From positions 124,001-188,000 of the forward strand of contig NZ_JAGQDF010000012.1 in NCBI RefSeq assembly GCF_018069875.1: 64,000 bases of DNA, given 5' to 3'. The DNA comes from Ideonella alba. GTDB lineage: Bacteria > Pseudomonadota > Gammaproteobacteria > Burkholderiales > Burkholderiaceae_C. Within the stretch, counting starts at the first letter, position 1, and every line of letters begins with the position of its first letter. Both the position numbers and the translations under genes were made by a program. The notes under the pieces are model-generated. The model saw nothing but the letters and a program-made list of their open reading frames with translations, did no database searches and had not been told where the DNA came from. Below are positions 17,732 to 53,714 of this stretch, one piece after another.

Positions 17732-17754
17732 ATGATTCGGTTTCATCGAATCAT
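17732..17754. promoter_or_regulatory. Candidate LysR box
   Basis: ATGATTCG and CGAATCAT form a perfect 8-bp inverted repeat with a 7-base spacer. The site contains ATT-N11-AAT, the T-N11-A pattern of LysR regulators. It lies in the 102-bp gap between the divergent NodD-like regulator and the alpha/beta hydrolase, 54 bases upstream of the hydrolase start. Confidence 0.65.
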
Positions 17755-18975: not shown

Positions 18976-18992
18976 GCACCAAGGACCCCACC

Positions 18993-19943: not shown

Positions 19944-20010
19944 GCCGCTCGCTGTACGCACCACCCACCCCCAGGCGAGGACCACCTCGCCGGCCCCCAG
20001 GAGACATCCC

Positions 20011-21141: not shown

Positions 21142-21158
21142 GACGGGAGCCGCCGACG

Positions 21159-21962
21159 ATGCGACCGCTGCAACGCCCCCGCCGCCTGGTGGATCTGTCG
21201 ATCTACCTGGAGAACGATGTGCTGTCCGATCCGCCGCCGCTGGCGCCGAAGATCACTTACCAGAAGCACCAGGACACGCTGCCCGAGTTCATGGCGATGA
21301 TCCCGGGCACCACGCCGGAGGACTATCCCGAGGGCGAGGCCGCTGCCGCCGAGTGGGTGACGCTGACCACCCACAACGGCACCCACCTGGACGCCCCCTG
21401 GCACTTCCATTCCACGCAGGACGCGAAGAACGGCGGCGCGCGCCCCAGCATCACGATCGACCAGGTGCCGCTGGAGTGGTGCTACCAGCCTGGCGTGAAG
21501 CTGGACTTCCGCCACTTTCCCGATGGCTATGTGGCCACCGCGGCCGACGTCGAGGCCGAGCTGGCACGCATCGGCTGGACGCTGCAGCCGCTGGACATCG
21601 TGCTGGTCAACACCCGCGCCGGCTCGCGCTACGGCCACCCCGACTACCTGGGCGCCGGCTGCGGCATGGGCTACGAGGCCACGATGTACCTGCTCGAGCG
21701 CGGCGTGCGACTGACCGGCACCGACGCCTGGAGCTGGGACGCGCCCTTCTCGTACACCGCGAAGAAGGTGGCCGAGACCGGCAACAAGGCGCTGATCTGG
21801 GAAGGCCACAAGGCCGGCCGCGACATCGGCTACTGCCACCTGGAAAAGCTGCACAACCTGGAGGCGCTGCCCGCGCACGGCTTCCTGGTCAGCTGCTTCC
21901 CGCACAAGATCCGTGGCGCCTCGGCCGGCTGGACCCGCGCCGTGGCCATTTTCGAGGACTGA
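21159..21962 (+). CDS. Cyclase-family metal-dependent hydrolase (kynurenine formamidase-like)
   Basis: This encodes 267 residues of the cyclase/KynB family. The metal-binding signature HNGTHLDAPWH is at residues 72-82, matching HxGTHxDxPxH. Known members hydrolyse formylkynurenine, isatin or related amides and lactones with Zn or Mn. In this operon it would fit opening of a lactone or hydrolysis of a ring-cleavage product. Kynurenine formamidase itself is unlikely because no kynurenine genes are nearby, and the protein is longer than KynB (about 210 residues). Confidence 0.8.
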   Translation: MRPLQRPRRLVDLSIYLENDVLSDPPPLAPKITYQKHQDTLPEFMAMIPGTTPEDYPEGEAAAAEWVTLTTHNGTHLDAPWHFHSTQDAKNGGARPSITIDQVPLEWCYQPGVKLDFRHFPDGYVATAADVEAELARIGWTLQPLDIVLVNTRAGSRYGHPDYLGAGCGMGYEATMYLLERGVRLTGTDAWSWDAPFSYTAKKVAETGNKALIWEGHKAGRDIGYCHLEKLHNLEALPAHGFLVSCFPHKIRGASAGWTRAVAIFED

Positions 21963-21966
21963 CGCC

Positions 21967-22950
21967 ATGCGACTGGCCACCCTGAACGACGGCAGCCTGG
22001 ATGGCCGCCTGATCATCGTTGCAAGCGACGGCGCCCGCGCCGCCCACGCCCCCGCCCCCTGGACCACGCTGATCGGCGCGCTGCAGCAGTGGGCCACCGC
22101 CGAGCCCGCGCTGCGCGCTGCGGCCGCCGCGCTGGACGCAGGCGAGGGCGGCTTCGCCTTCGATCCTGCGGCCTGCGCCGCGCCGCTGCCGCGCGCGCCG
22201 CAGTGGCTGGACGCCTCGGCCTTCCTGAACCACGGCCGGCTGATGGAGAGCGCCTTCGGCACGCCGCCGATCCCCGACTTCGACACCGTGCCGGTGATGT
22301 ACCAGGGCGCCAGCGACGATTTCCTGGGGCCGCATCAGGACGTGCCGCTGCCCTCCGAGGCCCACGGCATCGACTTCGAGGGCGAGTTCGGCGTCATCGT
22401 CGACGCCGTGCCCATGGGCGCCACGCCGGCCCAGGCCCTGGCCGCCGTGCGCCTGGTGGTGCAGCTCAACGACTGGAGCCTGCGCGCGCTGGGCCAGCAC
22501 GAGGTGCGCACCGGCTTCGGCTTCCTGCAGGCCAAGCCCAGCACCGCGTTCGCGCCGATCGCCGTCACCCCCGAAGCGCTGGGCCCGGCCTGGCAGGCCG
22601 GCCGGCTGAACCTGCGCCTGCACGTGCAGTGGAATGGCGAGCGCTTCGGCGAGCCCTCGGCCAGCGAGATGAACTTCGACTTCGGCCAGCTCATCGCCCA
22701 CGCGGCGCGCACGCGGCGGCTGAGCGCCGGCACCATCGTCGGCTCGGGCACGGTGTCCAACGCCGAGCGCGGCGCCGGCTCCGCCTGCATTGCCGAGCGC
22801 CGCATGATCGAGAAGCTGGCGCACGGCGAGATCCGCAGCGGCTTCATGCGCTTTGGCGACCGGGTGCGCCTGCAGGCCTGCCACGCCGATGGCCGCCCCG
22901 GCCCCTTCGGCGCGATCGACCAGCGCGTGGTGGCGGCGGGGGCGCCGTGA
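21967..22950 (+). CDS. Fumarylacetoacetate hydrolase family protein
   Basis: This encodes 327 residues. The FAH fold metal site is seen at DFEGEFG (Glu138, Glu140) and QLNDWSLR (Asp169), with the conserved C-terminal GTIVGSGTVSN block. Members hydrolyse acylpyruvates or fumarylacetoacetate, or decarboxylate and isomerise extradiol products. It is the probable step after ring cleavage by the VOC dioxygenase in the same operon. Its stop overlaps the next gene's GTG start (GTGA), showing tight coupling. Confidence 0.85.
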   Translation: MRLATLNDGSLDGRLIIVASDGARAAHAPAPWTTLIGALQQWATAEPALRAAAAALDAGEGGFAFDPAACAAPLPRAPQWLDASAFLNHGRLMESAFGTPPIPDFDTVPVMYQGASDDFLGPHQDVPLPSEAHGIDFEGEFGVIVDAVPMGATPAQALAAVRLVVQLNDWSLRALGQHEVRTGFGFLQAKPSTAFAPIAVTPEALGPAWQAGRLNLRLHVQWNGERFGEPSASEMNFDFGQLIAHAARTRRLSAGTIVGSGTVSNAERGAGSACIAERRMIEKLAHGEIRSGFMRFGDRVRLQACHADGRPGPFGAIDQRVVAAGAP

Positions 22951-23429
22951 CGCGGGTGCGCCTGCTGGGCGCCGGGCAGCACCTGGCGCTGTCCTCGGGC
23001 GCGAACCGGGCGCCGGTGGCACCGCCCGTGGCACCGCCGCTGCCGTCTGGCCTGGGCGATGATCCGCGCCAGCTGATGGAGCGCTTCGTCGACCTGTTCT
23101 ACCGCCGCCGCCAGGTGCGCGCGGCCTTCGAGTCCTGCGTGGTGCGCACCGGTTTCCGTGACCATGACCCGTCACGCCCCGGCGGCCGCCAGGCGGCCAT
23201 CGAGATGCTGGCGCGCAAGCTGGCCGAGCCCGACTTCTTCGTCGAGGTCGAGCGTGTCTTCCTGGACGGCGACCGCGCGGTGGTGCACACCTGGGTCGGC
23301 TCAGGGACGGATCGCCACCAGCGCCTGGACCTGTTCCGCATCGACGCCGGCCGCATCGTCGAACACTGGGGCTTTGACGAGACCGGCCGGTCCGTCTGTG
23401 CCCATTCCCTGCCTACGGAGACCGCTTGA
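22947..23429 (+). CDS. SnoaL-like/NTF2-fold protein
   Basis: This encodes 160 residues if translation starts at the GTG overlapping the FAH stop; no ATG exists before the conserved part. Residues about 45-155 form an NTF2-like domain (MERFVDLFYRRRQVRAAFESCV...VERVFLDGDRAVVHTWVGSG...DLFRIDAGRIVEHWG), with the D-F-R-x-GRIVEHW ending typical of SnoaL-like polyketide cyclase or isomerase relatives. The N-terminal 40 residues are Pro/Ala-rich. It sits between the aromatic enzymes and the deglycosidase pair. It could be an isomerase or a helper subunit; the role is unknown. Confidence 0.68.
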   Translation: MTRVRLLGAGQHLALSSGANRAPVAPPVAPPLPSGLGDDPRQLMERFVDLFYRRRQVRAAFESCVVRTGFRDHDPSRPGGRQAAIEMLARKLAEPDFFVEVERVFLDGDRAVVHTWVGSGTDRHQRLDLFRIDAGRIVEHWGFDETGRSVCAHSLPTETA

Positions 23430-24442
23430 TGCGTTCCAAGATCCAGCGAGGCATCAGCCTCTACAGCTTCCAGGAAGAGATGTTCCTGGGCCAGATGAGC
23501 GTGGAGGACGTGATCGCCTTCAGCGCCAGCATCGGCGCCCGCGCGGTGGAGATCCTGCCCGAGCAGAACATGCCCACCTTCCCGAACATCAGCGACGCGC
23601 AGATCGCCCAGTGGCACGAGATGCTGGCCCGCCACGGCGCGCACTTCTCGTGCTATGACATGTTCCTGGACACCAAGCGCCACAAGGACCGGCTGCTCAC
23701 CGACGACGAGCAGGTCGAGAGCATCCAGCGCGACCTGCGGCTGTGCCACCGCCTGGGCATCCGCAACATGCGCATTCTCATCTTCGTGCGCCCGGACATC
23801 CTGGAGCGCTGCGTGCCGCTGGCCGAGCAGCTCGACGTGCACATGGGCGTCGAGGTGCATGCGCCCTGGTACCTGGACCACGCCTGGATCCAGCGCACGA
23901 TCGAGGTGGCCGACCGCTTGAAGACCCGGCACCTGGGCATCCTGCCCGACATGGGCATCTTCATGAAGCACTACCCGCCGGTGATGCGCGCGCGCTATGA
24001 GCGCCAGGGCGCACGGCCCGAGGTGACGCAGTTCATCGTCGACAGCCACGAGCAGAAGATCATGTGCGAGTACACGATCTACGAGGTGGCGGTGAAGATG
24101 CAGGGCAACAAGGCCGAGGTGGCGATGGCCGAGAGCCTGCGCCACAACCCCTACGCGAACCCCAGGCGCATCGGCGACTTCGCGCCCTACTTCCGCCACA
24201 TCCAGGCCAAGTTCTACGAGATGACCGAGGACTGCCGCGACCCGTCACTGGACTACGAGGCGGTGATTCCCGAGCTGGTGAAGGCCGGCTGGGAGGGCAC
24301 GCTGTCGTCCGAGTACGAAGGCAACCGCTGGATCCAGGACGTGCAGCCGGTGGACAGCCGCGAGCAGGTGCGCCGCCAGCATGTGATGTTCGAGCGGCTG
24401 ATCGCCCAGGCCGAGCAGGCGCAGCCAGCAGGAGCCCAGTGA
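23429..24442 (+). CDS. C-glycoside deglycosidase alpha-subunit-like TIM barrel (pair 1)
   Basis: This encodes 337 residues of the xylose-isomerase-like TIM-barrel superfamily. Candidate metal ligands are Glu142 and His144 in VEVHAPW, Asp174 in ILPDMGIF, His257 in HIQAKFYEM and Glu295 in SSEYEGNRW. These motifs recur in two further genes of the window (30636, 32518). The partner DUF6379-like beta gene follows with a one-base overlap, as in the DgpC/DgpB and CarB/CarC-type enzymes that eliminate the aglycone from 3-oxo-C-glycosides. The ATG overlaps the stop of the SnoaL-like gene, so this pair belongs to the ring-cleavage operon. Activity and substrate are inferred. Confidence 0.8.
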   Translation: MRSKIQRGISLYSFQEEMFLGQMSVEDVIAFSASIGARAVEILPEQNMPTFPNISDAQIAQWHEMLARHGAHFSCYDMFLDTKRHKDRLLTDDEQVESIQRDLRLCHRLGIRNMRILIFVRPDILERCVPLAEQLDVHMGVEVHAPWYLDHAWIQRTIEVADRLKTRHLGILPDMGIFMKHYPPVMRARYERQGARPEVTQFIVDSHEQKIMCEYTIYEVAVKMQGNKAEVAMAESLRHNPYANPRRIGDFAPYFRHIQAKFYEMTEDCRDPSLDYEAVIPELVKAGWEGTLSSEYEGNRWIQDVQPVDSREQVRRQHVMFERLIAQAEQAQPAGAQ

Positions 24443-24831
24443 TGTTTGACAAGTACATCATCGACCCAGCGTCGGTGGCCAACACCGGACCGGCCGACGC
24501 GCCCACCGGGTTCTCGTTCACCAGCAAGCTGGGCTACTACCGCGGCCTGGGCCTGTCGATGGTGGAGGACCTGAAGGTCTCGATCGACGGCCAGGCGCTG
24601 CCGCGCGAGGCCATCACTTTCAATGAAGGCCCGGGCCCGCTGACCCTGGACCAGATGGAGACCGCGCTGGAGCGCCGCTGGGCCTTCGGCGCCCCCGCCA
24701 CCATCAGCGTGGCGCTGCCGGGCGGCTTTCCCCGGGGCGAGCACACGCTGGCGCTGCAGCAGCGCCTGCGCATCTCCTACATGCCCTTTCCCAGCGTCAA
24801 CCACGACGAGAAGCGCATCCGCTTCGGCTGA
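24442..24831 (+). CDS. C-glycoside deglycosidase beta-subunit-like protein, DUF6379 (pair 1)
   Basis: This encodes 129 residues, predicted all-beta, with no signal peptide. The signature segment is GYYRGLGLSMVEDLKVSIDG near residue 35, followed by PREAI and W-FG motifs and the YMPFP ending. Similar small proteins are the beta subunits of C-glycoside deglycosidases (DUF6379/CGDB), which pair with the TIM-barrel alpha subunit to shape the active site. It is the last gene of the operon that starts at 17809. The convergent LacI gene ends only 16 bases away, so no strong terminator is present. Confidence 0.8.
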   Translation: MFDKYIIDPASVANTGPADAPTGFSFTSKLGYYRGLGLSMVEDLKVSIDGQALPREAITFNEGPGPLTLDQMETALERRWAFGAPATISVALPGGFPRGEHTLALQQRLRISYMPFPSVNHDEKRIRFG

Positions 24832-24847
24832 TCGGGGCTGCAGGCCT

Positions 24848-25840
24848 TCAAGCCGAATCGCGCACGACCAGTTGATGACCCAGCGTGCGGGAGGCCGGGC
24901 GCTGGCCGCTCAGCCGCGCCAGCAGGATCTCGGCGGCGGTGGCGCCCAGCTCGCGCATCGGCTGCGACACCGTGGTCAGCGCCGGCTCGAACACGGCGGA
25001 CAGCGGCAGGTCGTCAAAGCCCACCACCGCGATGTCCTCGGGCACGCGCCGACCGGCGCGTCGGAAGGCCTTGATCGCGCCAATCGCCAGTGTGTCCGAC
25101 ACCGCAAAGACCGCGGTCGGCGGCTCCAGCAGCGCCAGCAGTCCACCGGCGGCCTGCGCGCCGGCGTCGTAGTCCAGGCTGGCGGCCAGCCGCACCAGTT
25201 GCGCATCCGGCTTCAGACCGGCACGCTCGATGGCCATCTCGTAGCCCTCATGGCGCAGCTGCGCCCAGCGGTAGGTTTCGTCGGCGGTGATCAGCCCGAT
25301 GCGGCGGTGACCGCGGTTGAGCAGGAACTGCACCGCGTCGATCGCCGCCTGGCGGTGGTCGATGCTGACGTAGGGCGGACCGGCCTTGGGCAGGTACTCC
25401 GAGCAGTTGACCCAGGGCAGGTTGCGCAGCTCGCCCAGCAGCGTGCCGTCGTCATTGAGGTGGGCCAGGTTGATCACGCCGTCGGCCAGGCGGTTGTAGA
25501 TCGCATCCAGCGCGGTGGTGTGCGGGGCCTCGTCGCCGGCGGCGTCGGTCAGCAGCAGCTTGTAGCCCGCCGGCCGGATCACCGACTCCACGCCCTGCAC
25601 GATCTGCGCATAGAACGGATTGGCGAAGTCGGGCACCAGCACCATCAGCAGGTGGCTTTGCGCCATGGCCAGGCTGCGACCGGCGGCATTGCCGCGGTAG
25701 CCGGTGGCTGCGATCGCACGCTCCACGCGCTTGCGCGTCTCGGGGTTCACCGGCTTGCTGTTGTTCATCACCCGCGAGACGGTGGCGATGGACACCCCCG
25801 CCAGGCGGGCGACCTCGTCGATGGAGGGCAGGTTCTTCAT
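24848..25840 (-). CDS. LacI-family transcriptional regulator
   Basis: This encodes 330 residues from the ATG MKNLPSIDEVARLAGVS; upstream in-frame ATGs run through its own operator and were rejected. The HTH and hinge helix are at about 5-60 (ARLAGVSIATVSRVMNNSKPVNPETRKRVERA). A periplasmic-binding-protein-like sugar domain follows, with VVGFDD, SQPM and AVSDTLAIGAIKAF blocks. It is divergent from the TonB receptor and long sugar-processing operon. Two near-identical palindromes in the intergenic region fit operators for it, one close to each gene. The effector may be a sugar released from the C-glycoside, which is an inference. Confidence 0.88.
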   Translation of the reverse strand: MKNLPSIDEVARLAGVSIATVSRVMNNSKPVNPETRKRVERAIAATGYRGNAAGRSLAMAQSHLLMVLVPDFANPFYAQIVQGVESVIRPAGYKLLLTDAAGDEAPHTTALDAIYNRLADGVINLAHLNDDGTLLGELRNLPWVNCSEYLPKAGPPYVSIDHRQAAIDAVQFLLNRGHRRIGLITADETYRWAQLRHEGYEMAIERAGLKPDAQLVRLAASLDYDAGAQAAGGLLALLEPPTAVFAVSDTLAIGAIKAFRRAGRRVPEDIAVVGFDDLPLSAVFEPALTTVSQPMRELGATAAEILLARLSGQRPASRTLGHQLVVRDSA

Positions 25841-25863
25841 GGGGCGTGCCGCGCGCAGCGGCT

Positions 25864-25877
25864 GGAAAGTGCTTTCC
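25864..25877. promoter_or_regulatory. Candidate LacI operator, autoregulatory copy
   Basis: GGAAAG-TG-CTTTCC is a perfect 6-bp inverted repeat, 23 bases upstream of the LacI-family start. It shares the GGAAAG-N2-CTT-CC pattern with the site at 25976-25989 and has the CpG-like centre and symmetry typical of LacI-family operators. It probably mediates autoregulation. Confidence 0.68.
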
Positions 25878-25975
25878 CATTCTGCCTGATATGGTGACTT
25901 GCTGTCCAAACGTCTCGCCGGTCACTCAGGAAATCTACCTATGATAAAAGTAGAAACCCTAGTGTGGGAAAGCGA

Positions 25976-25989
25976 GGAAAGCGCTTACC
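25976..25989. promoter_or_regulatory. Candidate LacI operator controlling the TonB/sugar operon
   Basis: GGAAAGCGCTTACC matches the 25864 site at 12 of 14 positions and is a palindrome apart from one base pair. It lies 93 bases upstream of the TonB receptor start, with another GGGAAAGCG half-site just before it. The 98-bp spacing of the two operators would allow looping by a tetrameric or paired LacI protein. Confidence 0.65.
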
Positions 25990-26082
25990 TTTCGTTCCGC
26001 TGATTGATCCCCGCCCACGGTCGATGCACGGCGCGCCCGACACCGGCAATCGACCGCCACGACACCCCTAGGAGACAAACCG

Positions 26083-28302
26083 ATGTCGCAGCAGCAACTC
26101 ACTCCCCTGAGCCAGGTGCTCCTGGCCGCCGGCCTGGTGGCCGCCAGCCTGCCTGGCTGGGCCCAGGACGCCAACACCACCGACCGCAAGGCCGGCGTGA
26201 TCCAGGAAGTGGTGGTCACCGCCCAGAAGACCGCCCAGCCGGCGTCGAAGACGCCGGTGGCCCTGTCGGTGGTCAGTGCCGACGACCTGAAGGACGCCGG
26301 CATCACCGACGCCCGCGGCCTGGCCGAGGTCACGCCCAACCTGCAGATGGGGCAGGAGAGCGGCAAGCTGCAGATCGCCATCCGCGGCGTGGTCAGCCTG
26401 GACATGACCGAGAAGGGCGACCCCTCGGCGGCCTTCAACGTCGACGGCGCCTATGTCGCCCGTTTCGAAGCCCAGATGGGCGCCTTCCTCGACCTGGACC
26501 GCATCGAGGTGCTGCGTGGTCCGCAAGGCACGCTGTACGGTCGCAACGCCACCGCCGGCGCGATCAACCTGATCACTGCCAAGCCCGCCAAGCTCTTCGG
26601 TGCGCGCATCGAGGGTGAGATCGGCAACTACGGGGCGCGCCGCATCGAGGGCATGATCAATGTGCCGATCAACGATGTGCTGTCGCTGCGCGCCGCTGCC
26701 AGCAAGACCCAGCGCGACACCTACTTGAACCCCGGCCCCAACACCGATATTCCGCTGGAAAGCAAGAGCGACTACGCCGGCCGCGTACATCTGCTGGCCA
26801 AGATCTCGGCCGACAGCTCGCTGCTGCTGACCGCCGAAACCAGCCATCAGGGCGGCAATGGCGCCACGCCGGTGCCGATGGGCAACTTCTTCACCGGCAC
26901 CTACATCGACCGCCTGCCCTTCTCGCCGCCCGACACCGGCAACAACATCCAGAACCCGGTCTACATCGACCGCGGTTCGGCCGCCCAGCGCACCACCGGC
27001 CTGCGCTTCCAGGCCACGGATGCCCACCGCGACAACGACGCCCACGCGCTGCGCGCCGAATACAAGCGCAGCCTGGGTTTTGCAGAGCTGACCTACCAGT
27101 TGGCCTACATGAAGAGCCAGGTCGACGAGGTCCAGAACGGCGTCTACTTCGGCTTCCCGTTCCGCGGCGAGGTGCCGGGCACCGCCGAATCCACCTCGCA
27201 TGAGCTGCGCCTGAATTCGCAGGGCAGCGGCCCGCTGCGTTGGGTGGCCGGCGCCTACCTGTTCGACGAGAAGGTGCACCGCGACACCATCTACCGCACC
27301 TTCATCACCGCGCCCTTCGGCAGCTTCACGGTGACCGTGCCCTTCAACGTGGACGTGCGCAACAAGTCTAAGGCGGTGTTCGGTCAGGCCACCTACGCGC
27401 TGCAGCCCGAGACCCGACTGACCATGGGTCTGCGCTACACCAAGGACGACAAGACCGGCTCCGACACCCTGGCCGGCACGCCCGCCACGCCGCCAGCCAC
27501 CTCCAGCCCCGCGGCCTATTCCACCGGCGTGGCCTTCAGCAACACCAGCTGGAAGCTGGGTGTGGACCACGACCTGACGCCCGGCACCATGGTCTTCGGC
27601 TCGGTGGCCACCGGCTACAAGGCCGGCGGTTTCAACGACCAGGTCACCGCCGGCACCTACAAGCCCGAGAACCTGACCGCGGTGGAGCTGGGCGTGAAGA
27701 GCAAGCTGATGCAGGACCGCCTGCAGCTGACCGCCAGCCTCTTCCACTACGACTACAAGGACATGCAGCTGAACTCGGTGGTCTGCCGCACCAACGATCC
27801 GTCGACCTGCGGCTCGGTGACCACCAACGCGGCCAGCTCCAAGATCAACGGCGCCGAGATCGAGTCCCGCTGGCTGGTCAGCGACAACGGCCAGCTGCGT
27901 GCTTCGGTGGCGCTGACCGACGCCAAGTTCGGCACCTACAAGCCCAACGCCACCGATGACTGGAGCGGTCAGCGTCTGGACCGCGCGCCGCGCAGCGTGG
28001 TCAGCCTGGGCTACAGCCACCGCTTCAACCTGGAGTCCGGCGCCGACATCACCGCCACCGTGGGGACCCGACTGAACTCGGGCTACACGATCAGCGATCC
28101 GGCCGCCGGCGTGCGCTACGGCCAGCCCTCGTTCCGCAAGAGCGACGCCAGCCTCGGCTGGACCAGCCCCGACCAGAAGACCCAGGTCCAGCTCTTCGTG
28201 AAGAACATCGAGGACAAGATCACGATCGAGAGCCGCGTGCCGGGCAGCTTCTTCATCGGCGACCCGCGCACCTACGGCGTCCGCGCCAGCTACAGCTTCT
28301 GA
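26083..28302 (+). CDS. TonB-dependent outer-membrane receptor
   Basis: This encodes 739 residues. The signal peptide ends near GWAQDA. The TonB box EVVVTA is at residues 42-47. The plug follows, with the family motifs DRIEVLRGPQGTLYGRNATAGAINLIT, and then a 22-strand-type barrel ending in aromatic SYSF. It belongs to the FecA/IroN-like group common in sphingomonads and Burkholderiales for import of plant glycosides and aromatics rather than siderophores. It heads the operon controlled by the LacI regulator and has an AGGAGACAAACCG ribosome binding site. Glycoside uptake is inferred from its neighbours. Confidence 0.9.
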   Translation: MSQQQLTPLSQVLLAAGLVAASLPGWAQDANTTDRKAGVIQEVVVTAQKTAQPASKTPVALSVVSADDLKDAGITDARGLAEVTPNLQMGQESGKLQIAIRGVVSLDMTEKGDPSAAFNVDGAYVARFEAQMGAFLDLDRIEVLRGPQGTLYGRNATAGAINLITAKPAKLFGARIEGEIGNYGARRIEGMINVPINDVLSLRAAASKTQRDTYLNPGPNTDIPLESKSDYAGRVHLLAKISADSSLLLTAETSHQGGNGATPVPMGNFFTGTYIDRLPFSPPDTGNNIQNPVYIDRGSAAQRTTGLRFQATDAHRDNDAHALRAEYKRSLGFAELTYQLAYMKSQVDEVQNGVYFGFPFRGEVPGTAESTSHELRLNSQGSGPLRWVAGAYLFDEKVHRDTIYRTFITAPFGSFTVTVPFNVDVRNKSKAVFGQATYALQPETRLTMGLRYTKDDKTGSDTLAGTPATPPATSSPAAYSTGVAFSNTSWKLGVDHDLTPGTMVFGSVATGYKAGGFNDQVTAGTYKPENLTAVELGVKSKLMQDRLQLTASLFHYDYKDMQLNSVVCRTNDPSTCGSVTTNAASSKINGAEIESRWLVSDNGQLRASVALTDAKFGTYKPNATDDWSGQRLDRAPRSVVSLGYSHRFNLESGADITATVGTRLNSGYTISDPAAGVRYGQPSFRKSDASLGWTSPDQKTQVQLFVKNIEDKITIESRVPGSFFIGDPRTYGVRASYSF

Positions 28303-28312
28303 TGCGTGACCA

Positions 28313-28342
28313 GGCCCCGGCAACCCGCCGGGGCCGCCTTTT
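28313..28342 (+). terminator. Intrinsic terminator or attenuator after the TonB receptor gene
   Basis: GGCCCCGGC and GCCGGGGCC form a perfect 9-bp stem with a 5-base loop (28313-28335), followed by GCC and TTTT. It lies 10 bases after the receptor stop and 17 bases before the next start codon, so it could reduce read-through and set a higher receptor-to-enzyme ratio. Confidence 0.75.
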
Positions 28343-28358
28343 CCCCAAGGCCTTTTCC

Positions 28359-29417
28359 ATGAGCACCACCCTCCAAGGACCGGCGATCTTCCTGGCGCAG
28401 TTCGCCGGTGACCAGGCGCCGTTCAACTCCTGGCCCGCGATCACGCAGTGGGCCGCCTCGCTGGGCTACCGCGGCGTCCAGGTGCCCACCTGGGACGCGC
28501 GTCTGTTCGACCTGGACCGCGCCGCCGAATCCAAGACCTGGTGCGACGAGTTCGCCGGCATCGCGCGCGAGAACGGCGTGGCGATCACCGAGCTGTCCAC
28601 CCACCTGCAGGGCCAGCTGGTGGCGGTGCACCCGGCTTACGACGAGGCCTTCGACGCCTTCGCCCCCGAGGCCCTGCGCGGCAAGCCCGCCGAGCGCCAG
28701 CGCTGGGCGGTGGACCAGGTGCTGAAGGTGGCCAAGGCTTCGCAGCACCTGGGCCTGAACGCCAGCATCAGCTTCCCCGGCGCGCTGGCCTGGCCCTTCC
28801 TGTACCCGTGGCCGCAGCGGCCGGCCGGCCTGGTGGAGGCCGCCTTTGACGAGCTGGCCAAGCGCTGGATCCCGATCCTCGACGCCTACGACGAGGCGGG
28901 CGTGGACATCGCGTTCGAGCTGCACCCCGGCGAGGACCTGCACGACGGTGTCACCTTCGACATGCTGCTCGAGCGCGTGGGCGGCCACCGTCGCCTGAAC
29001 ATCGCCTACGACCCCAGCCACTTCGTGCTGCAGCAACTGGACTACCTGCAGTTCATCGACCTGTACCACGACCGCATCAAGGTCTTCCACGTCAAGGACG
29101 CCGAGTTCCGCCCCACCGGCCGCCAGGGCGTCTACGGCGGCTTCCAGTCCTGGCAGGACCGGGCCGGGCGCTTCCGCTCGCTGGGCGACGGCCAGGTGGA
29201 CTTCAAGGCGGTGTTCTCGAAGATGGCCCAGTACGACTTCAAGGGCTGGGCGGTGCTGGAGTGGGAGTGCTGCCTGAAGCACCCGGAGCAGGGGGCCGCC
29301 GAAGGCGCGCCCTTCATCCGCGACCACATCATCCGCGTCACCGAGAAGGCCTTCGACGACTTCGCCGGCGGCGCCGCGGATCCCGCTCAACTGCGCCGCA
29401 TGCTCGGGCTGAACTGA
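28359..29417 (+). CDS. Sugar phosphate isomerase/epimerase family TIM barrel
   Basis: This encodes 352 residues of the xylose-isomerase-like superfamily. The metal-site pattern includes AFELHPGE (Glu), IAYDPSHF (Asp, His), KVFHVKDAEF (His) and AVLEWECC (Glu). The protein is longer than IolE, with an insert containing YGGFQSWQDRAGRFRSLGDG, a block common in AP-endonuclease-2-type sugar isomerases near Gfo/Idh genes. It is the first enzyme after the receptor and 1 base from a Gfo/Idh/MocA gene. It may isomerise or hydrate a keto-sugar; the substrate is unknown. Confidence 0.78.
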   Translation: MSTTLQGPAIFLAQFAGDQAPFNSWPAITQWAASLGYRGVQVPTWDARLFDLDRAAESKTWCDEFAGIARENGVAITELSTHLQGQLVAVHPAYDEAFDAFAPEALRGKPAERQRWAVDQVLKVAKASQHLGLNASISFPGALAWPFLYPWPQRPAGLVEAAFDELAKRWIPILDAYDEAGVDIAFELHPGEDLHDGVTFDMLLERVGGHRRLNIAYDPSHFVLQQLDYLQFIDLYHDRIKVFHVKDAEFRPTGRQGVYGGFQSWQDRAGRFRSLGDGQVDFKAVFSKMAQYDFKGWAVLEWECCLKHPEQGAAEGAPFIRDHIIRVTEKAFDDFAGGAADPAQLRRMLGLN

Positions 29418-29418
29418 C

Positions 29419-30606
29419 ATGGTGGCTGCCAGCAAGAACACGGCAGGCCGCAAGCCGGCCAGGATCCGCCTGGGCATGGTGGGCGGTGGGCAGGGCGCCT
29501 TCATTGGCGCGGTGCACCGCATCGCGGCGCGTCTGGACGACCAGTACGAACTGGTGGCCGGCGCGCTGTCGGCCTCGCCCGACAAGGCCCTGGCCTCGGG
29601 ACGCGAACTGGGCCTGGCCGACGACCGCGTCTACGACAACTACGAGGCCATGGCGCGCGCCGAGGCCGCGCGCGACGACGGCATCGAGGCGGTGGCCATC
29701 GTCACCCCCAACCACCTGCACGCGCCGATCGCCACCGCCTTCCTGAAGGCCGGCATCCACGTCATCTGCGACAAGCCGGTGACTGTGCACAGCGCCGACG
29801 CCAGGAAGCTGGCCGCGCTGGCCAGAAAGCAGGGCCTGATCTTTGCGGTCACCCACAACTACAGCGGCTACCCGATGGTGCGCCTGGCGCGCCAGATGGT
29901 GAAGGACGGCCGGCTGGGCGACGTCCGCGTGGTCCAGGCCGAGTACCCGCAGGACTGGCTGACCGAGCCGCTGGAAACCACCGGCCAGAAGCAGGCCGCC
30001 TGGCGCACCGACCCGGTCCAGGCCGGCGGCGGCGCGATCGGCGACATCGGATCGCACGCCTGGCACCTGGCCGACTACGTCAGCGGCCTGGCGCTGGCCG
30101 AGCTGTGCGCCGAGCTCAGCAGCTTCGTGCCCGGCCGTGCGGTGGATGACAATGCCCAGGTGCTGCTGCGCTACGCCAACGGCGCGCGCGGCGCGATCTG
30201 GGCCAGCCAGGTGGCGCCGGGCCACCTGAACGGTCTGCGCCTGCGGGTCTACGGCAGCCGGGGCGGCCTGGAGTGGTCGCAGGAGCAGCCCAACCAGCTG
30301 CGCTTCACGCCCTTCGGACAGCCCACGCAGTTGCTGGAGCGTGGCGGGGCCGGTTTCGGCGAGGCCGGCGCCCGGGTCAATCGCATTCCGGGCGGCCACC
30401 CGGAGGGCTACCTGGAAGCCTTTGCCACGATCTACAGCGAAGTCGCCCAGCACCTGCGCGCAGCGCGCGGCGGCAAGGCCGGCAAGCCCGACAAGGCCAG
30501 CCACTTCCCGACCATCGACGACGGCCTGCGCGGCGTGCAGTTCATCGAAGCGGTGCAGCGCTCCTCGCGGCAAGGCGGCCGCTGGGTCAAGCTGCCGACG
30601 CCGTGA
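29419..30606 (+). CDS. Gfo/Idh/MocA family oxidoreductase
   Basis: This encodes 395 residues. The NAD(P)-binding motif GMVGGGQGAFIG is at 19-30 and the hallmark CDKPVT at 117-122, with Lys119 the conserved active-site residue. GDIGSHAWHLADY carries the catalytic His. Members oxidise or reduce sugar hydroxyls. DgpA, the puerarin C3 oxidase/dehydrogenase that feeds the C-deglycosidase, belongs to this family. This gene directly precedes deglycosidase alpha gene 2, so C3 oxidation of the sugar, or the reverse reduction of a keto-sugar, is a reasonable inference. Confidence 0.82.
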   Translation: MVAASKNTAGRKPARIRLGMVGGGQGAFIGAVHRIAARLDDQYELVAGALSASPDKALASGRELGLADDRVYDNYEAMARAEAARDDGIEAVAIVTPNHLHAPIATAFLKAGIHVICDKPVTVHSADARKLAALARKQGLIFAVTHNYSGYPMVRLARQMVKDGRLGDVRVVQAEYPQDWLTEPLETTGQKQAAWRTDPVQAGGGAIGDIGSHAWHLADYVSGLALAELCAELSSFVPGRAVDDNAQVLLRYANGARGAIWASQVAPGHLNGLRLRVYGSRGGLEWSQEQPNQLRFTPFGQPTQLLERGGAGFGEAGARVNRIPGGHPEGYLEAFATIYSEVAQHLRAARGGKAGKPDKASHFPTIDDGLRGVQFIEAVQRSSRQGGRWVKLPTP

Positions 30607-30635
30607 CGCCTCCCACCCCTCCAACGAGCACCACT

Positions 30636-31646
30636 ATGAGCCACCAGATCCGGCGTGGGGTCAGCCTCTACAGCTTCCAGAACGACACCTTCCTGCGCCA
30701 CATGACGCTGGAGGACTGCGTGCGCACCTGCGCCGAGATCGGCGCGCTGGGCATCGAGGTCGTGGGTGAACAGAGCTTCACCGGCTGGCCCGAGGTCGGC
30801 ATGCCCACCGCCGAGATCGCCCACTGGCACGCGCTGATGGAGCGCTACGGCACCACCCCGGTCTGCCACGACTTCATGCTGGACTACAAACGCGTCAAGG
30901 GCCAGGTCATGCCCTTTGCCGAGCAGGTGGCCAGCGTGAAGAAGGACATCGACTTCGGCGCCGCGCTGGGCATGCGCTACATCCGCTCGCTGGTGTCGGT
31001 CGCCCCCGAGGTGCTGGTGGCCTGCGCCGGCTATGCCGAGGACAAGGGCATCACCATCCTGCTGGAGGTGCACGCGCCGCTGCACTTCGACCACCCCTGG
31101 ATCGTCCGCCACGCCGAGGCCTACGAGAAGTCCGGCTCCCGGGCCCTGGGCTTCCTGCCCGACATGGGCATGTTCGTGCACCGCTTCCCGCGGGTCTGGA
31201 AGGAGCGCTTCGTCCGCAACGGTGTGCCCCGGCACATCGCAGATTACATCGAGCAGGCCTACCAGGACCGCGTGCTCAGCGAGTACGTGCTGCTGGATGT
31301 GCAGCAGATGGGCGGCACCGGCCCGGCGATCGCGATGGCCGAGACCCTGCGCCACAACGCCGCCTTCGAGCCGAAACGGATGCTCGACTTCATGCACCGC
31401 ATCCACAACATCCACGGCAAGTTCTACGAGATGACCGAGGACGACGTGGAGTACTCCATCCCCTACGACGAGATCGTCGCGGTGCTGAAGCAGGGCGGCT
31501 ACCAGGGCTACATCTGCTCCGAGTACGAAGGCAACCGCTGGATCGAGGACGCCCACCCGGTGCGATCGGTCGAGCAGGTGAAGCGCCAGCACCGCATGCT
31601 GTGCCGGCTGCTGGACGAGCCGATCCCTGCGGCGCTGCAGGCCTGA
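30636..31646 (+). CDS. C-glycoside deglycosidase alpha-subunit-like TIM barrel (pair 2)
   Basis: This encodes 336 residues and is a clear paralogue of the 23429 gene: RRGVSLYSFQ start, Glu144 and His146 in LLEVHAPLHFDHPW, Asp176 in LPDMGMF, His260 in NIHGKFYEM, Glu296 in CSEYEGNRW. The shared GKFYEMTED and SEYEGNRWI blocks tie the two together. The DUF6379-like beta gene follows 19 bases downstream. The characterised family cleaves the C-C glycosidic bond of 3-oxo-C-glycosides by a metal-assisted elimination. The second copy may act on another linkage position (for example C6 versus C8) or another aglycone; that is inference. Confidence 0.8.
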   Translation: MSHQIRRGVSLYSFQNDTFLRHMTLEDCVRTCAEIGALGIEVVGEQSFTGWPEVGMPTAEIAHWHALMERYGTTPVCHDFMLDYKRVKGQVMPFAEQVASVKKDIDFGAALGMRYIRSLVSVAPEVLVACAGYAEDKGITILLEVHAPLHFDHPWIVRHAEAYEKSGSRALGFLPDMGMFVHRFPRVWKERFVRNGVPRHIADYIEQAYQDRVLSEYVLLDVQQMGGTGPAIAMAETLRHNAAFEPKRMLDFMHRIHNIHGKFYEMTEDDVEYSIPYDEIVAVLKQGGYQGYICSEYEGNRWIEDAHPVRSVEQVKRQHRMLCRLLDEPIPAALQA

Positions 31647-31665
31647 ACGCCAAGGAGAACACCCC

Positions 31666-32058
31666 ATGATGGATCAGCACATGCTCTGCGACGACGGCTT
31701 CGAGAACGTCGTCGAGGGCGGGCACACCACCGGCTTCGCGCTGCTGGCGCGCCTGCCCTACTACCGCGGCCTGGGCCTGTCGATGGTCGAGGACATTGCC
31801 GTCTCGATCGACGGCCAGGCCGTGCCGCGCGAGGCCGTGCGCCTGGCGCTGCGCGGCCGCAGCTGGAGCCTCGACGAGATGGAGCGCTGCTTCGACGAGA
31901 AATGGAACTTCGGCGAAAAGGCCCGCGTCCTCGTGGCGCGCCCGGGCGGCCTGGTGCCCGGCGCGCACCAGGTGGATCTGGCGATCCGCTACCGCGTCTC
32001 CTACCTGCCCTTCGTGCCGACCACCCGCACCGGCCGACCCCTCACCTTGGCGGTCTGA
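31666..32058 (+). CDS. C-glycoside deglycosidase beta-subunit-like protein, DUF6379 (pair 2)
   Basis: This encodes 130 residues. It shares the PYYRGLGLSMVED core, VSIDGQAVPREAV and the RVSYLPF ending with the 24442 protein, while the N-terminus and the loop after PREAV differ. It is the likely partner of the TIM barrel at 30636. The start follows an AAGGAGAACACCCC ribosome binding site. MM at the start leaves two possible initiation codons. Confidence 0.8.
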   Translation: MMDQHMLCDDGFENVVEGGHTTGFALLARLPYYRGLGLSMVEDIAVSIDGQAVPREAVRLALRGRSWSLDEMERCFDEKWNFGEKARVLVARPGGLVPGAHQVDLAIRYRVSYLPFVPTTRTGRPLTLAV

Positions 32059-32083
32059 CCCGCCACCACACGAACACACTGCC

Positions 32084-32482
32084 ATGGCCCGCTTCTTCAA
32101 GAACGCCTTCAGCGACTACCTGATCACCCCCGAGGACTCGCGCATCACGCCCGATGGCCTGGTGCTGGACCTGCGCCTGCCCTGGTACCGCTCACTGCCG
32201 CTGTCGGTGGTGATGCCCACCCAGCTGGTGGTCGACGGCCAGACCGTGCCGCTGGACGGCGCCACCGTCGAATATGAGGGCCGGCGCTACACGCTGGCCG
32301 AGCTGCCCGAGCAGACCGGCGTGTCCTGGTTCATCCAGGACTCGGTGCTGCTGCATGTGCCCACGCCCCAGCCGCTGGCCAGCGGCCCGCACCATGTGGT
32401 CGTCACGCTGAACCTGTACCCGCCCTACATCCCGATGCTGACCCATGTGACCCGCGGTGACGCACACGTTCAGGCCGCCTGA
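32084..32482 (+). CDS. Divergent deglycosidase beta-subunit-like protein (pair 3)
   Basis: This encodes 132 residues starting MARFFKNAFSDYLI. The fold pattern of the other two beta proteins can be followed: LPWYRSLPLSVVMPTQLVVDGQTVPLDGA replaces PYYRGLGLSMVED...VSIDGQ.VPREA, and YPPYIPM replaces YLPF. The GLGLSMVED signature itself is lost. It lies between beta 2 and alpha 3, so its partner is probably the 32518 TIM barrel with beta-alpha order. Altered substrate range or a regulatory role is possible. Confidence 0.7.
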   Translation: MARFFKNAFSDYLITPEDSRITPDGLVLDLRLPWYRSLPLSVVMPTQLVVDGQTVPLDGATVEYEGRRYTLAELPEQTGVSWFIQDSVLLHVPTPQPLASGPHHVVVTLNLYPPYIPMLTHVTRGDAHVQAA

Positions 32483-32517
32483 GGGCGCGCCACCTCCACC
32501 GCACAGACGCATTGACC

Positions 32518-33549
32518 ATGAACGCACCCCAGACCACCGCCGCGCCCAAGGGCTTCCAGCTCGGCTCCACGCTGTACAGCTTCACCAACGAGTGGCATGA
32601 GCGCCGCTACGGCTTCGAGGACCTGATCGCCGAAGTGGCCAAGCGCCAGCTCGGCCCGGGCCTGGAGATCATCGGCTTCTCCAGCATCCGCGGCTTCCCG
32701 AACGTCAGCGACGACTTTGCCGCCCGCTTCAAGGACCTGATGGCGAAGTACGGCCTGACGCCCAGCTGCCTGAGCATCAACGCCGACATGGCGATCCGCC
32801 GCGGCACGATGATGAGCATCGACGAGGCCGTGGCCTACCACGCGCCGCAGATCGAGGCCGCCGCCAAGATGGGCTTCCCGACCATCCGCTGCCAGTTCGC
32901 CGCGCCGGTGGAGGTGATCATCCGCCTGCTGCCGCTGCTGGAGAAGCACGGCATCAAGATCGGCCCGGAAGTGCACGCGCCGCTGAACCCCAGCTCGCCG
33001 CCGGTGATGGCCTGGCGCGAGGCCTATGCCAAGGCCAATTCGCCGCTGCTGGGCTTCGTGCCCGACTTCGGCTGCTGCGCCAGCCGGCTGCCCGCCACCT
33101 ACATCGCCAACCTGCGCCGCCAGGAGCTGCCGGAAGACCTGATCCAGCTGGCGCTGGAGGTGTGGCAATTGCCCAAGGACGCCGGCTGGAAGCGCCAGGA
33201 GTTTGCCCGCCGCGTGGAGCCGCTGAACGCCGACCCGGCCGATGTCAGCGCGCTGGCGGTGATGTTCAACATCCTCAGCCCCGGCACCGCCGAGATGTGG
33301 AAGGAGATCATGCCGCAGGTGGTGCACGTGCACGGCAAGTTCTACGACTTCGACGACAACGGCGACGAGGCCTCGATCGACTACAACAGCATCCTGCCGG
33401 TGTTCCACGACGGCGGCTTCACCGGCTTCATGTCCAGCGAGTGGGAGGGCCACCTCTACATGCGCAACGTCGATGCCTTCGAGATGGTGGCCAAGCACCA
33501 GGCCCAGGCACGGCGCGTGATCGCCCGCCACACCGGAGCGGCGGCGTGA
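32518..33549 (+). CDS. Divergent C-glycoside deglycosidase alpha-subunit-like TIM barrel (pair 3)
   Basis: This encodes 343 residues. It keeps the family metal site: Glu151 and His153 in PEVHAPLN, Asp183 in VPDFGCC, His272 in VHVHGKFYDF and Glu308 in SSEWEGHLY. It is clearly more distant from copies 1 and 2 (SEWEGHLY for SEYEGNRW, longer N-terminus). It follows the divergent beta gene by 35 bases. A third specificity or a step acting on the elimination product is possible. Confidence 0.75.
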   Translation: MNAPQTTAAPKGFQLGSTLYSFTNEWHERRYGFEDLIAEVAKRQLGPGLEIIGFSSIRGFPNVSDDFAARFKDLMAKYGLTPSCLSINADMAIRRGTMMSIDEAVAYHAPQIEAAAKMGFPTIRCQFAAPVEVIIRLLPLLEKHGIKIGPEVHAPLNPSSPPVMAWREAYAKANSPLLGFVPDFGCCASRLPATYIANLRRQELPEDLIQLALEVWQLPKDAGWKRQEFARRVEPLNADPADVSALAVMFNILSPGTAEMWKEIMPQVVHVHGKFYDFDDNGDEASIDYNSILPVFHDGGFTGFMSSEWEGHLYMRNVDAFEMVAKHQAQARRVIARHTGAAA

Positions 33550-34514
33550 GCCCCATTGGTGCCCCGCTGTCAGGGCGGCGTCTTCGATACGCGTACATGG
33601 ACCACTGGCGCGTCGACACGCCCCAGGGTCCGCTGTCGCAGTACAGCTCGGTGGAGCGCTTTGATGCCTTCCTGAAGCAGATCGCCGGTGTGGGCTACGA
33701 GGCCATCGAGACCTTCGACTTCCACCTGCCGGTGCTGCGCGACCTGTTCGGCTCGCTCGAGGCCGCGCGCGCCCACATGCAAAGCCGCGGCATCGACCGC
33801 GTGCTGAGCCTGTTCCATGCGGTGATGTACGACGCGCGCCAGAGCACGCCGCACGTGCGCGCCACGCACGACCGCATGGCGGGCTATGCCGAGTACATCA
33901 TGAAGAGCAGCGCCGGCCTGGGCGTGCAGAACTTCATCGTCATGCCGGTCGGCCTGTACTTCGACGTGGAGCCGGTCACCGACGACAAGATCCGCGCCTG
34001 CGCCGAACTCTGGAACCGCATCGGCCAGATGACGCTGGAGGGCTACGGCGTCAAGACCTGCTGCCACCACGAGTTCTTCTGCGGCATCCGCAGCGCCGAG
34101 CAGCTGCGCAAGTTCTACGACTGGACCGACCCGCGCTATGTCTTCCTGTGCCTGGACACGGCGCAGCACGTGATCGCTGGCGTCGACCCGGTCCAGCTGT
34201 TCATCGAGCGCCGCGAGCGCGTGGCTGCCTTCCACCTGAAGGACACCCACCACGTCGATCTGAACGGCGACTACCGCCGCAAGCCCGACGCCGAGGTGAT
34301 GGCGCCCACCACCGACCGCTGGTTCTACGAGATGGGCACCGAGGGCGGCCTGGTCGACTTCCCGGCGCTGTATGGCGCGATGAAGGACACCGCCTGGGCC
34401 GGCTGGGTGGGCGTGGAGCACGACAAGGCCGACGTCGGCGGCGGCAACTACCCCGAGAGCACGGCCATAGCGGCCTGGTACCTGCGCAACGTGCTGAGGC
34501 CGATTCATGACTAA
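33546..34514 (+). CDS. Sugar phosphate isomerase/epimerase family TIM barrel
   Basis: This encodes 322 residues from a GTG that overlaps the stop of the preceding gene; an ATG at 33597 (MDHWRVD) is an alternative start. Metal-site segments are CCHHEFF, CLDTAQH, AAFHLKDTHHVD and VGVEHDKADVG (Glu, Asp, His, Glu). The arrangement resembles IolE/AP-endonuclease-2-type sugar isomerases. It overlaps the next isomerase gene by 8 bases. The substrate is unknown; a keto-sugar from deglycosylation is a guess from context. Confidence 0.72.
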   Translation: MSPIGAPLSGRRLRYAYMDHWRVDTPQGPLSQYSSVERFDAFLKQIAGVGYEAIETFDFHLPVLRDLFGSLEAARAHMQSRGIDRVLSLFHAVMYDARQSTPHVRATHDRMAGYAEYIMKSSAGLGVQNFIVMPVGLYFDVEPVTDDKIRACAELWNRIGQMTLEGYGVKTCCHHEFFCGIRSAEQLRKFYDWTDPRYVFLCLDTAQHVIAGVDPVQLFIERRERVAAFHLKDTHHVDLNGDYRRKPDAEVMAPTTDRWFYEMGTEGGLVDFPALYGAMKDTAWAGWVGVEHDKADVGGGNYPESTAIAAWYLRNVLRPIHD

Positions 34515-35466
34515 GTGGGGCTACGCAATCAACCAGTGGAAAGCCGGCTTCACCGGCTTCGCCCGACTGGAACAGCACGAACGGGCGCTGAAGGTGACCT
34601 CCGCCTGCGGCTTCGACGCCATCGAGCTCAGCGCCGGCACCGGCCGCTGGGACCCGATGGGCCGGCCCGAGAACATCCTCATCAACTTCGGCTCGGTCGA
34701 CCATTTCAAGCTGAAGCTGCGCGACTGGGGCATCCGCCGCGTCGCCAGCCTGTTCCTCGACCCGCTGCAGATGAGCTTCGAGGAGCTGCACCACGGCCTG
34801 GACTGCAGCGATCCCGATCACCAGGCGCTGTTGCTGCAGCAGGCCGAGGTGTTCGCCCGCTTCTTGGCCGAGGTCGATGGCGAGGTGCTGGTGGTCCGCG
34901 CACTGCCGCCCTATGGCCGCCATGGTGGACTGAGCGCCGAACGGCAAGCGGCCGCCGCGGCCTGCTGGAACGCGGTGGGGGCAATGACTGCCGCGCTGGG
35001 CGTGAAGACCGTGCTGCACCTGGACGCGCTGTCGGCGCTGCGCGGTATGGACGAGGTCGAAGCCTGGCTGCAGCAGCTGGACCCGGCCACCGTGGGCCTG
35101 GCGCTGGACACCGCCGAACTGACCATCGCCGGGCACGACGTGACGGCCTGGTACCGGCGCTTCCAGGCGCGTGTGTGGCACATCCATCTGAAGGATGCGC
35201 TGGCGGTCGACACCGACGGCGAGTACCGCGCCCCCAACGCCGAACGCGCGCTGATGCTGGCTGGCGGCCAGCGCGCCATTCCCCGCTGGTTTGGCGAACT
35301 GGGTAGCGGCCTGGTGGACTGGACCGCCTTCATGACGGCGCTGCGCGAGACCGGCTACGCCGGCTGGCTGATTGTCGAAAGCGACAAGGGCCCCGCGCCC
35401 CAGGCCGCGGCCATGATGCAGAACGCCTGGACGGTGCGGCATGTGCTGCAGCCGCTGCTGGCCTGA
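34507..35466 (+). CDS. Sugar phosphate isomerase/epimerase family TIM barrel
   Basis: This encodes 319 residues. Family segments are GYAINQWK at the start, VLHLDALSAL, LALDTAELTIAGHD, WHIHLKDA and WLIVESDKG. Some metal positions differ from the canonical set: the first ligand Glu appears as Asp in LHLDAL. It begins inside the end of the preceding isomerase gene (8-base overlap), showing translational coupling. It is probably an isomerase or epimerase for a hexose derivative in the same pathway. Confidence 0.72.
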   Translation: MTKWGYAINQWKAGFTGFARLEQHERALKVTSACGFDAIELSAGTGRWDPMGRPENILINFGSVDHFKLKLRDWGIRRVASLFLDPLQMSFEELHHGLDCSDPDHQALLLQQAEVFARFLAEVDGEVLVVRALPPYGRHGGLSAERQAAAAACWNAVGAMTAALGVKTVLHLDALSALRGMDEVEAWLQQLDPATVGLALDTAELTIAGHDVTAWYRRFQARVWHIHLKDALAVDTDGEYRAPNAERALMLAGGQRAIPRWFGELGSGLVDWTAFMTALRETGYAGWLIVESDKGPAPQAAAMMQNAWTVRHVLQPLLA

Positions 35467-35490
35467 CACCTTCACGAACGAGAACACCCC

Positions 35491-37061: not shown

Positions 37062-37083
37062 GCCCGCCAAGGAACACCCACGC

Positions 37084-37860: not shown

Positions 37861-37873
37861 ACGGCTGTTGCCC

Positions 37874-39550: not shown

Positions 39551-39572
39551 GACCCACACCATGGAGACAGCC

Positions 39573-40763: not shown

Positions 40764-40834
40764 GCGGGCGTCCCTGCTGAATGTCCCTGGCCTCCCGGCT
40801 GCGGCCGGGGGCTGGCCACGCCTTTGCCTGATCC

Positions 40835-50821: not shown

Positions 50822-50860
50822 CGCCCCCGTTCCCCCCCCAACAACACCCGGAGACCTGCC

Positions 50861-51868: not shown

Positions 51869-51901
51869 GCCGTCCGCGCCAGGACGCAAGGAGTCACCAC
51901 G

Positions 51902-52801: not shown

Positions 52802-52820
52802 TGCCGCTGCCGAGGTGACC

Positions 52821-53702: not shown

Positions 53703-53714
53703 CGAAAGGCCGCG

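Follow-up and report, generated by a model that had tools for sequence, protein, structure and literature searches.

Three pairs of probable C-glycoside deglycosidase genes

A stretch of 64,000 nucleotides from Ideonella alba (contig NZ_JAGQDF010000012.1, positions 124,001 to 188,000), here called the window, contains three gene pairs that resemble the alpha and beta subunits of C-glycoside deglycosidases (CGDs). A preliminary description, made from the sequence alone, had noted three TIM-barrel proteins at 23429, 30636 and 32518, each adjoining a small beta protein, and this arrangement is borne out. All six open reading frames were found, with plausible start codons, and are listed below in window coordinates with their predicted identities.

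23429..24442, + strand: CGD alpha1, a TIM barrel with Gln at the AgCGD2 His269 position
24442..24831, + strand: CGD beta1 (PF19906, 120.2 bits)
30636..31646, + strand: CGD alpha2 (8qvc_A, E 3e-107, 52% identity; metal and catalytic residues kept)
31666..32058, + strand: CGD beta2 (PF19906, 134 bits; best PDB match 8qvc_B)
32084..32482, + strand: CGD beta3, AgCGD2 type (PF19906, 65.8 bits)
32518..33549, + strand: CGD alpha3, AgCGD2 type (7dnm_A, E 2.2e-69, 39% identity; metal and catalytic residues kept)

The second and third pairs lie in an inner operon, in the order alpha2-beta2-beta3-alpha3. All three betas score above the curated Pfam cut-off of 27.6 bits for the C-glycoside deglycosidase beta subunit family (CGDB, PF19906). 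A search of the whole genome, which is 99.83% complete, found no fourth CGDB copy; all three matches are in this locus. The family is found in one of 399 genomes of the order (the source genome itself), in four of 398 genomes of the phylum (of which one scores under the cut-off) and in two of 150 genomes of the family, the source genome being counted once in each. Because CGDB is rare across all three samples, chance pairing is excluded.

For alpha1, alpha2, alpha3, beta2 and beta3 the best PDB match is a named CGD structure; for beta1 the comparison was with Pfam alone. All three alphas are TIM barrels nearest to known CGDs in sequence, tree and residues, and on these grounds they are classed as CGDs, alpha1 and alpha2 resembling the Deinococcus aerius CGD and alpha3 resembling AgCGD2. 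The alphas were aligned with relatives (118 sequences in all) and a tree was built from 73 of these after near-duplicates had been removed by hand. In this tree they lie nearest to known CGDs, which speaks against the isomerase reading. The profile matches of the betas and the position of the alphas thus support the CGD reading of the preliminary description, and a fold comparison of alpha1 and beta3 supports it too. Against the Pfam model AP_endonuc_2, alpha3 scores 26.9 bits, below that model's cut-off. Pairwise identity among the window alphas is only 25-41% and each falls in a separate clade, which rules out recent tandem duplication of the pairs.

Active site residues

In AgCGD2 the metal ligands are Glu147, Asp179, His269, Lys271 and Glu305; His149 is the base and is assisted by Glu307 (PMC8563793). 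Alpha2 and alpha3 keep all seven of these residues in the alignment, and equivalents of the catalytic His149 and Glu307 are present in all three window alphas. The shared motifs that had been described, EVHAP, PD-G, KFY and SE(Y/W)EG, are indeed found in all three; the His of the H-GKFY motif is not, since alpha1 reads HIQAKFY, with Gln in its place. The substrate-contact residue Tyr17 of AgCGD2 is likewise kept in each of the three. In PuCGE, a change of beta Tyr39 to Phe removes more than 99% of C-glycoside activity, and the change in O-glycoside activity is 2.4-fold (PMC10628242). All three window betas keep the homologue of this Tyr, and among the 121 betas aligned 120 have it.

Partnership of the alpha and beta subunits

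Loci were taken from a scan in which the best 80 of 269 relatives were kept, so that loci distant from alpha2 are under-represented. The pairing analysis set aside L001-L003, L007-L014, L029 and L068, as well as alpha matches no longer than about 800 nt. A beta gene lies within 148 nt of the alpha gene for 108 of 111 alphas, on the same strand in 107 of these 108. The order is alpha-beta in 83 pairs and beta-alpha in 25; the alpha2-like type is mostly alpha-beta and the alpha3-like type often beta-alpha, with exceptions. Distances between alphas correlate with those between betas (r = 0.95), a value reached in none of 1000 within-locus shuffles. Where a locus has several pairs, each of the 28 comparisons gave a better fit for own partners than for swapped partners. 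This shows that alpha and beta are inherited jointly, and shared descent adds to the correlation.

Three natural beta-alpha fusion frames (L087 13952-17140, L098 6846-8141 and L098 8167-9645) point in the same direction. Together with the pairing statistics they lend indirect support to a predicted complex in which the active site would lie where alpha and beta meet. Five betas were listed as unpaired in the pairing analysis, two of which (L087 15854 and L098 6852) are alpha fusions.

CGD loci in other genomes

The closest named locus is that of Ideonella aquatica 4Y11, with DNA identity of 96.8% over 22213-24832 and 93.1% over 24848-41643. It carries the same three CGD pairs; the stretch compared begins inside the fumarylacetoacetate hydrolase (FAH) gene, and comparison of the operon described below as the aglycone operon covers only the part from there. 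One of the three window pairs has no counterpart in Pelomonas sp. KK5, which has two CGDB copies in its genome. The I. livida contig ends 540 bases past the LacI gene and so gives no evidence for or against the absence of pair 1.

Neighbourhoods were counted in those 59 of the 80 loci that reach 19,900 nt or more, which gives about 10 kb to either side of the CGD, with identity thresholds of our own choosing. One CGD is present in 43 loci, two in 14 and three in two. All 16 loci with at least two CGDs hold an alpha2-like and an alpha3-like gene, and they include Proteobacteria, Actinomycetota and Bacteroidota. A plasmid of Arthrobacter sp. StoSoilB13 (L098) carries, in about 20 kb, five CGD alpha parts and as many beta parts; two alpha and two beta parts are fused, one alpha part is short (a frame of about 262 amino acids) and one alpha is nearly identical to AgCGD2. 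Geodermatophilus obscurus (L087) has three CGDs, one of them fused. These two loci rule out that three CGDs in one locus are unique to the window. Three CGDB copies are also carried by two further genomes, within 60 kb in G1019 and scattered in G938.

Predicted genes for uptake, oxidation and the sugar arm

The genes around the inner operon include predicted functions for glycoside uptake, oxidation and sugar processing.

26083..28302, + strand: TonB-dependent receptor (PF00593/PF07715)
28359..29417, + strand: 2-hydroxy-3-keto-glucal hydratase, AtHYD homologue (8ro4_A, E 1.9e-172, residues 4-351)
29419..30606, + strand: Gfo/Idh/MocA oxidoreductase, likely a 3-keto-glucose reductase (PF01408; 3v5n, E 6.5e-156)
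37874..39550, + strand: GMC oxidoreductase, candidate glycoside C3 oxidase/dehydrogenase (PF05199/PF00732)
39573..42295, + strand: two MFS transporters, at 39573 and 40835 (PF07690)
42346..43326, + strand: second Gfo/Idh/MocA oxidoreductase

Similarity of the 28359 protein to AtHYD (8ro4) extends over its full length. AtHYD acts on the compound that CGDs release. Hydratase and Gfo neighbours are both present in 36 of the 59 CGD loci, and relatives of the GMC protein at 30% identity or more in 29. The best PDB match of the GMC protein is a glucose dehydrogenase (6a2u, E 2.4e-27). Its C-terminus matches pyranose oxidases and 7dve. As to the C-glycoside 3-oxidase clade (CarA/PsG3Ox), there are matches to 7dve and 7qf8, with the best stretch confined to the C-terminus.

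The putative aglycone operon

Pair 1 is encoded at the end of an operon with genes of the kind used in flavonoid ring cleavage.

17809..18975, + strand: alpha/beta hydrolase, likely a C-C hydrolase of a ring-cleavage product (PDB 2jbw, E 4e-24)
18993..19943, + strand: VOC/extradiol-dioxygenase-like protein of the IfcB/FdeC kind (PF00903)
20011..21141, + strand: FAD monooxygenase of the IfcA/FdeE kind (PF01494; PRK06847 subfamily above cut-off)
21159..21962, + strand: cyclase-family protein (PF04199; 89% identity in Diaphorobacter, L006)
21967..22950, + strand: FAH family protein (PF01557)
22956..23429, + strand: SnoaL/NTF2-like protein (PF12680, 28.5 bits, cut-off 27)

The best PDB match of the hydrolase, 2jbw, is 2,6-dihydroxy-pseudo-oxynicotine (DHPON) hydrolase. 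The VOC protein matches HpaD and biphenyl-diol dioxygenase models, both below cut-off. Likened by gene kind, the FAD monooxygenase, VOC protein and DHPON-like hydrolase together are those of the Variovorax ifc and Herbaspirillum fde clusters. A Diaphorobacter plasmid carries the same five aglycone genes in the same order at 66-89% identity (73% for the FAD monooxygenase), with Rieske, MFS and cupin genes interspersed; no CGD was found in that stretch.

At least two of the five aglycone genes lie beside a CGD in 10 of the 59 loci, and two metagenome loci (L080 and L081) read VOC-FAD monooxygenase-alpha-beta. In Sphingomonadaceae the cyclase is present at 64% identity or more in 9 of 16 CGDB genomes and in 17 others among 199 (Fisher p 1.8e-5, which assumes that all 16 are in the sample of 199; membership is unconfirmed for the seven without a listed match). 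Of these nine genomes, seven have the cyclase and CGDB on one contig within 70 kb (four within 20 kb); the remaining two have them far apart in one case and on separate contigs in the other.

The source genome has, elsewhere, a second alpha/beta hydrolase-VOC-FAD monooxygenase set (G000:C35, L110 6785-10436), with identities of 83%, 67% and 59%. No CGD was found in the 19 kb of that locus.

Regulators and other genes

As the preliminary description had it, two operons lie beside different regulators.

16777..17706, - strand: LysR-type regulator, divergent from the aglycone operon (PF00126/PF03466)
17732..17754, no strand: candidate LysR-type binding site ATGATTCG-N7-CGAATCAT, a perfect 8+8 inverted repeat
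24848..25840, - strand: LacI-family regulator (PF00356/PF13377)
25864..25877, no strand: candidate LacI operator 1, palindrome GGAAAGTGCTTTCC
25976..25989, no strand: candidate LacI operator 2, palindrome GGAAAGCGCTTACC

Both palindromes sit in the gap that separates the LacI gene from the TonB-receptor gene. At up to three mismatches, the LysR repeat pattern matches the window once (0.05 expected). The LacI-type pattern matches it three times, the third at 9040 (0.31 expected); both patterns were written after the sites had been seen. An exact match to the LysR repeat occurs in one of 114 loci, the locus of the source genome itself (L108). These sites suggest that LysR and LacI proteins may regulate the locus.

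The following genes lie between pair 3 and the GMC gene.

33597..37061, + strand: four sugar-isomerase-like TIM barrels, at 33597, 34507, 35491 and 36270 (PF01261)
37084..37860, + strand: SnoaL_4 protein (PF13577)

Two of the four barrels resemble hydroxypyruvate/2-oxo-tetronate isomerase models, below cut-off, and relatives of some of the four adjoin CGDs in other loci. Directly downstream of the locus is a xylose isomerase (43369-44682; TIGR02630, 641.6 bits, above cut-off). A neighbouring plant-aromatic set at 49541-61711 includes TRAP transporter genes (49541, 50861), a shikimate dehydrogenase (51902), two separate genes, at 52821 and 53715, each matching one half of QuiC below that model's cut-off, and, at 60431, a gallate dioxygenase that scores above its own. 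On the - strand at 5426-9232, a frame of 1268 amino acids joins a molybdopterin nitrate/formate-type reductase part to a CysJ-like flavoprotein part.

A proposed catabolic route and its alternatives

Family membership, pairing, residues and gene order are read from the sequence; from these we infer every reaction, what the substrate is, how it is imported and how the three pairs share the work. The locus probably serves the catabolism of plant C-glycosyl (iso)flavonoids and related polyphenols by means of three CGDs of different specificity. Its substrates probably include O-glycosides as well. The pairs belong to three separate lineages, and the linkage (C6, C8 or O) or the aglycone that they accept most likely varies from pair to pair.

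A four-step scheme of oxidation, elimination, hydration and reduction has been published (PMC10628242). In the window, the glycoside would be imported by the TonB receptor and the MFS proteins, and C3 of the sugar would be converted to a ketone by the GMC oxidoreductase or a Gfo/Idh enzyme. One of the three alpha-beta heteromers would then split the bond by metal-assisted beta-elimination, in which the alpha His would take the C2 proton and the beta Tyr would stabilise the ionised aglycone phenol. The expected products are the aglycone and 2-hydroxy-3-keto-glucal. The latter would be hydrated to 3-keto-glucose by the AtHYD-like protein and reduced to glucose by the Gfo/Idh enzyme at 29419. The aglycone would pass to the LysR-linked operon (17809-22950) for A-ring hydroxylation, extradiol cleavage and hydrolysis. 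IfcA is inactive on isoflavone glycosides (PMC11069340); sugar removal before ring cleavage would therefore make sense.

Several observations weigh against this reading. Alpha1 keeps six of the seven AgCGD2 residues and four of the five metal ligands, and changes of metal ligands to Ala strongly lowered the activity of PuCGD and MiCGD (PMC8563793). Contact residues of AgCGD2 are partly lost: Asn248 is present in alpha3 only, Ser124 in alpha2 only and Arg123 in none. These residues leave C6 versus C8 specificity unsettled. The nearest solved relatives of the GMC protein are FAD glucose and fructose dehydrogenases. Resemblance to ifc and fde is one of gene kinds, not of comparison with Ifc and Fde sequences, and in 49 of the 59 CGD loci the surrounding 10 kb or so contain at most one aglycone gene. 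PuCGE also splits O-glycosides, so a C-C substrate is unproven (PMC10628242).

It is rather unlikely that CGD function is confined to pairs 2 and 3, the chemistry of pair 1 having been lost or changed through the replacement of a metal-ligand His by Gln. The Gln is found in alpha1 and its I. aquatica copy, other A1-like alphas having His, and alpha1 is on a long lone branch of the alpha tree. Nevertheless the same Gln recurs in kept genes: it is present in a Microbacterium testaceum protein that is a CGD by name (PDB 8qrz), in seven actinobacterial alphas of the alignment and in two of the three fusion frames. The Gln of alpha1 is therefore no proof of lost function. In other isomerases of the TIM-barrel fold, Gln is among the residues that bind the metal. 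The reading frame, the remaining ligands and the beta partner of alpha1 are intact.

We regard as improbable that the pairs are general 3-keto-glycoside beta-eliminases for O-glycosides, with C-C cleavage at most a side activity. PuCGE acts on 3-keto O- and C-glucosides, and plant O-glycosides are the commoner kind (PMC10628242); the hydratase and Gfo genes, moreover, are those of a general pathway for glucosides. Removal of the beta subunit leaves PuCGE with only some 1.4% of its activity on the O-glycoside, so the presence of a beta subunit is by itself no sign of C-glycosides. However, AtOGE, an eliminase specific for O-glycosides, has no beta subunit, and the Tyr that is critical for the C-glycoside activity of PuCGE is the very residue conserved in the window betas and nearly all others aligned.

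A doubtful extension of the C-glycoside reading is a self-contained route from C-glycosyl flavonoids to glucose and central metabolites, with pair 1 as a specialised CGD for a sugar that the other two cannot remove. Such a sugar might, with as little confidence, be the second of a 6,8-di-C-glycosyl flavone or one on a hydroxylated A ring. Pfam labels of only AP_endonuc_2 and xylose isomerase-like might suggest that the barrels are plain sugar isomerases beside small proteins of no relation to them; the alpha tree, the fold gap and the CGDB matches make this very unlikely.

The C-glycoside reading matters because full breakdown of C-glycosyl flavonoids by aerobic soil and water bacteria is poorly known. 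Puerarin has been followed to the aglycone in aerobic soil bacteria (PMC12724307), and a study of aerobic degradation in soil bacteria starts from the free isoflavone (PMC11069340). The locus appears to join the deglycosylation half to the ring-cleavage half, in a route whose steps could each be tested through the gene concerned. Its three CGDs, each from a different lineage, are a natural set within one cell for asking what sets C6, C8 or O specificity, and alpha1 is a natural Gln variant of the CGD metal site.

Comparison with known systems

AgCGD2 from Arthrobacter globiformis (PDB 7dnm/7dnn; PMC8563793) is the best structure match of alpha3 and beta3, with the same metal set and base. Identity to alpha3 is 39%, and alpha3 differs in sharing its operon with a second CGD type. 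The Deinococcus aerius CGD (PDB 8qvc/8umc), which has a beta partner, is the best match of alpha1 (50%) and alpha2 (52%); alpha1 differs from it in having Gln for the His ligand, and the D. aerius activity is taken from the PDB title. A literature search found no citations for PDB 8qvc, 8qrz, 8umc, 8un2, 9m3a or 9m3b. PuCGD/PuCGE, which is DgpBC (PDB 7bvr, 7exz), shares with the window pairs the beta Tyr39, the metal site (apart from the Gln of alpha1) and the heteromeric make-up predicted for them. Alpha identity is 25-31%, and PuCGD comes from an anaerobic gut bacterium in which oxidation is by DgpA (Gfo/Idh).

The psg3ox cluster of Pseudarthrobacter siccitolerans combines a GMC 3-oxidase with two CGD pairs, compared with three pairs here, and the available part of the report mentions no aglycone genes for it (PMC10646112). 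Catenibacillus has three, four or six dgpBC sets per genome, which have been read as a broad C-glycoside range, and like the route proposed here it degrades flavonoid aglycones too. It differs in being a strict anaerobe with DgpA elsewhere in the genome and reductive aglycone breakdown (PMC11170127). PurABC homologues (FAD oxidase and CGD) were found by database search in Pseudomonadota, Bacteroidota and Deinococcota; the available text describes no sets that combine them with aglycone genes (PMC12724307). The Agrobacterium tumefaciens GlycDH-AtOGE-AtHYD-Gfo pathway shares the hydratase and Gfo steps, and its eliminase, AtOGE, is unrelated in sequence to the window CGDs (PMC10628242). Variovorax ifc and Herbaspirillum fde have the FAD monooxygenase, glyoxalase/VOC protein and DHPON-like hydrolase, as in the window, and the available text on them does not mention a CGD (PMC11069340). 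The combination of a CGD with ifc or fde was not found in a literature search, most subscription papers being outside its reach.

Already known, then, are CGD pairs as such, the cluster that joins two of them to a 3-oxidase, the three to six dgpBC sets of single genomes and the occurrence of PurABC homologues in Pseudomonadota. What is new is the presence of three distinct CGDs together with hydratase, Gfo/Idh and GMC genes and a putative flavonoid ring-cleavage operon in one 25-kb stretch, and the newest element is the apparent link of CGDs to flavonoid ring cleavage.

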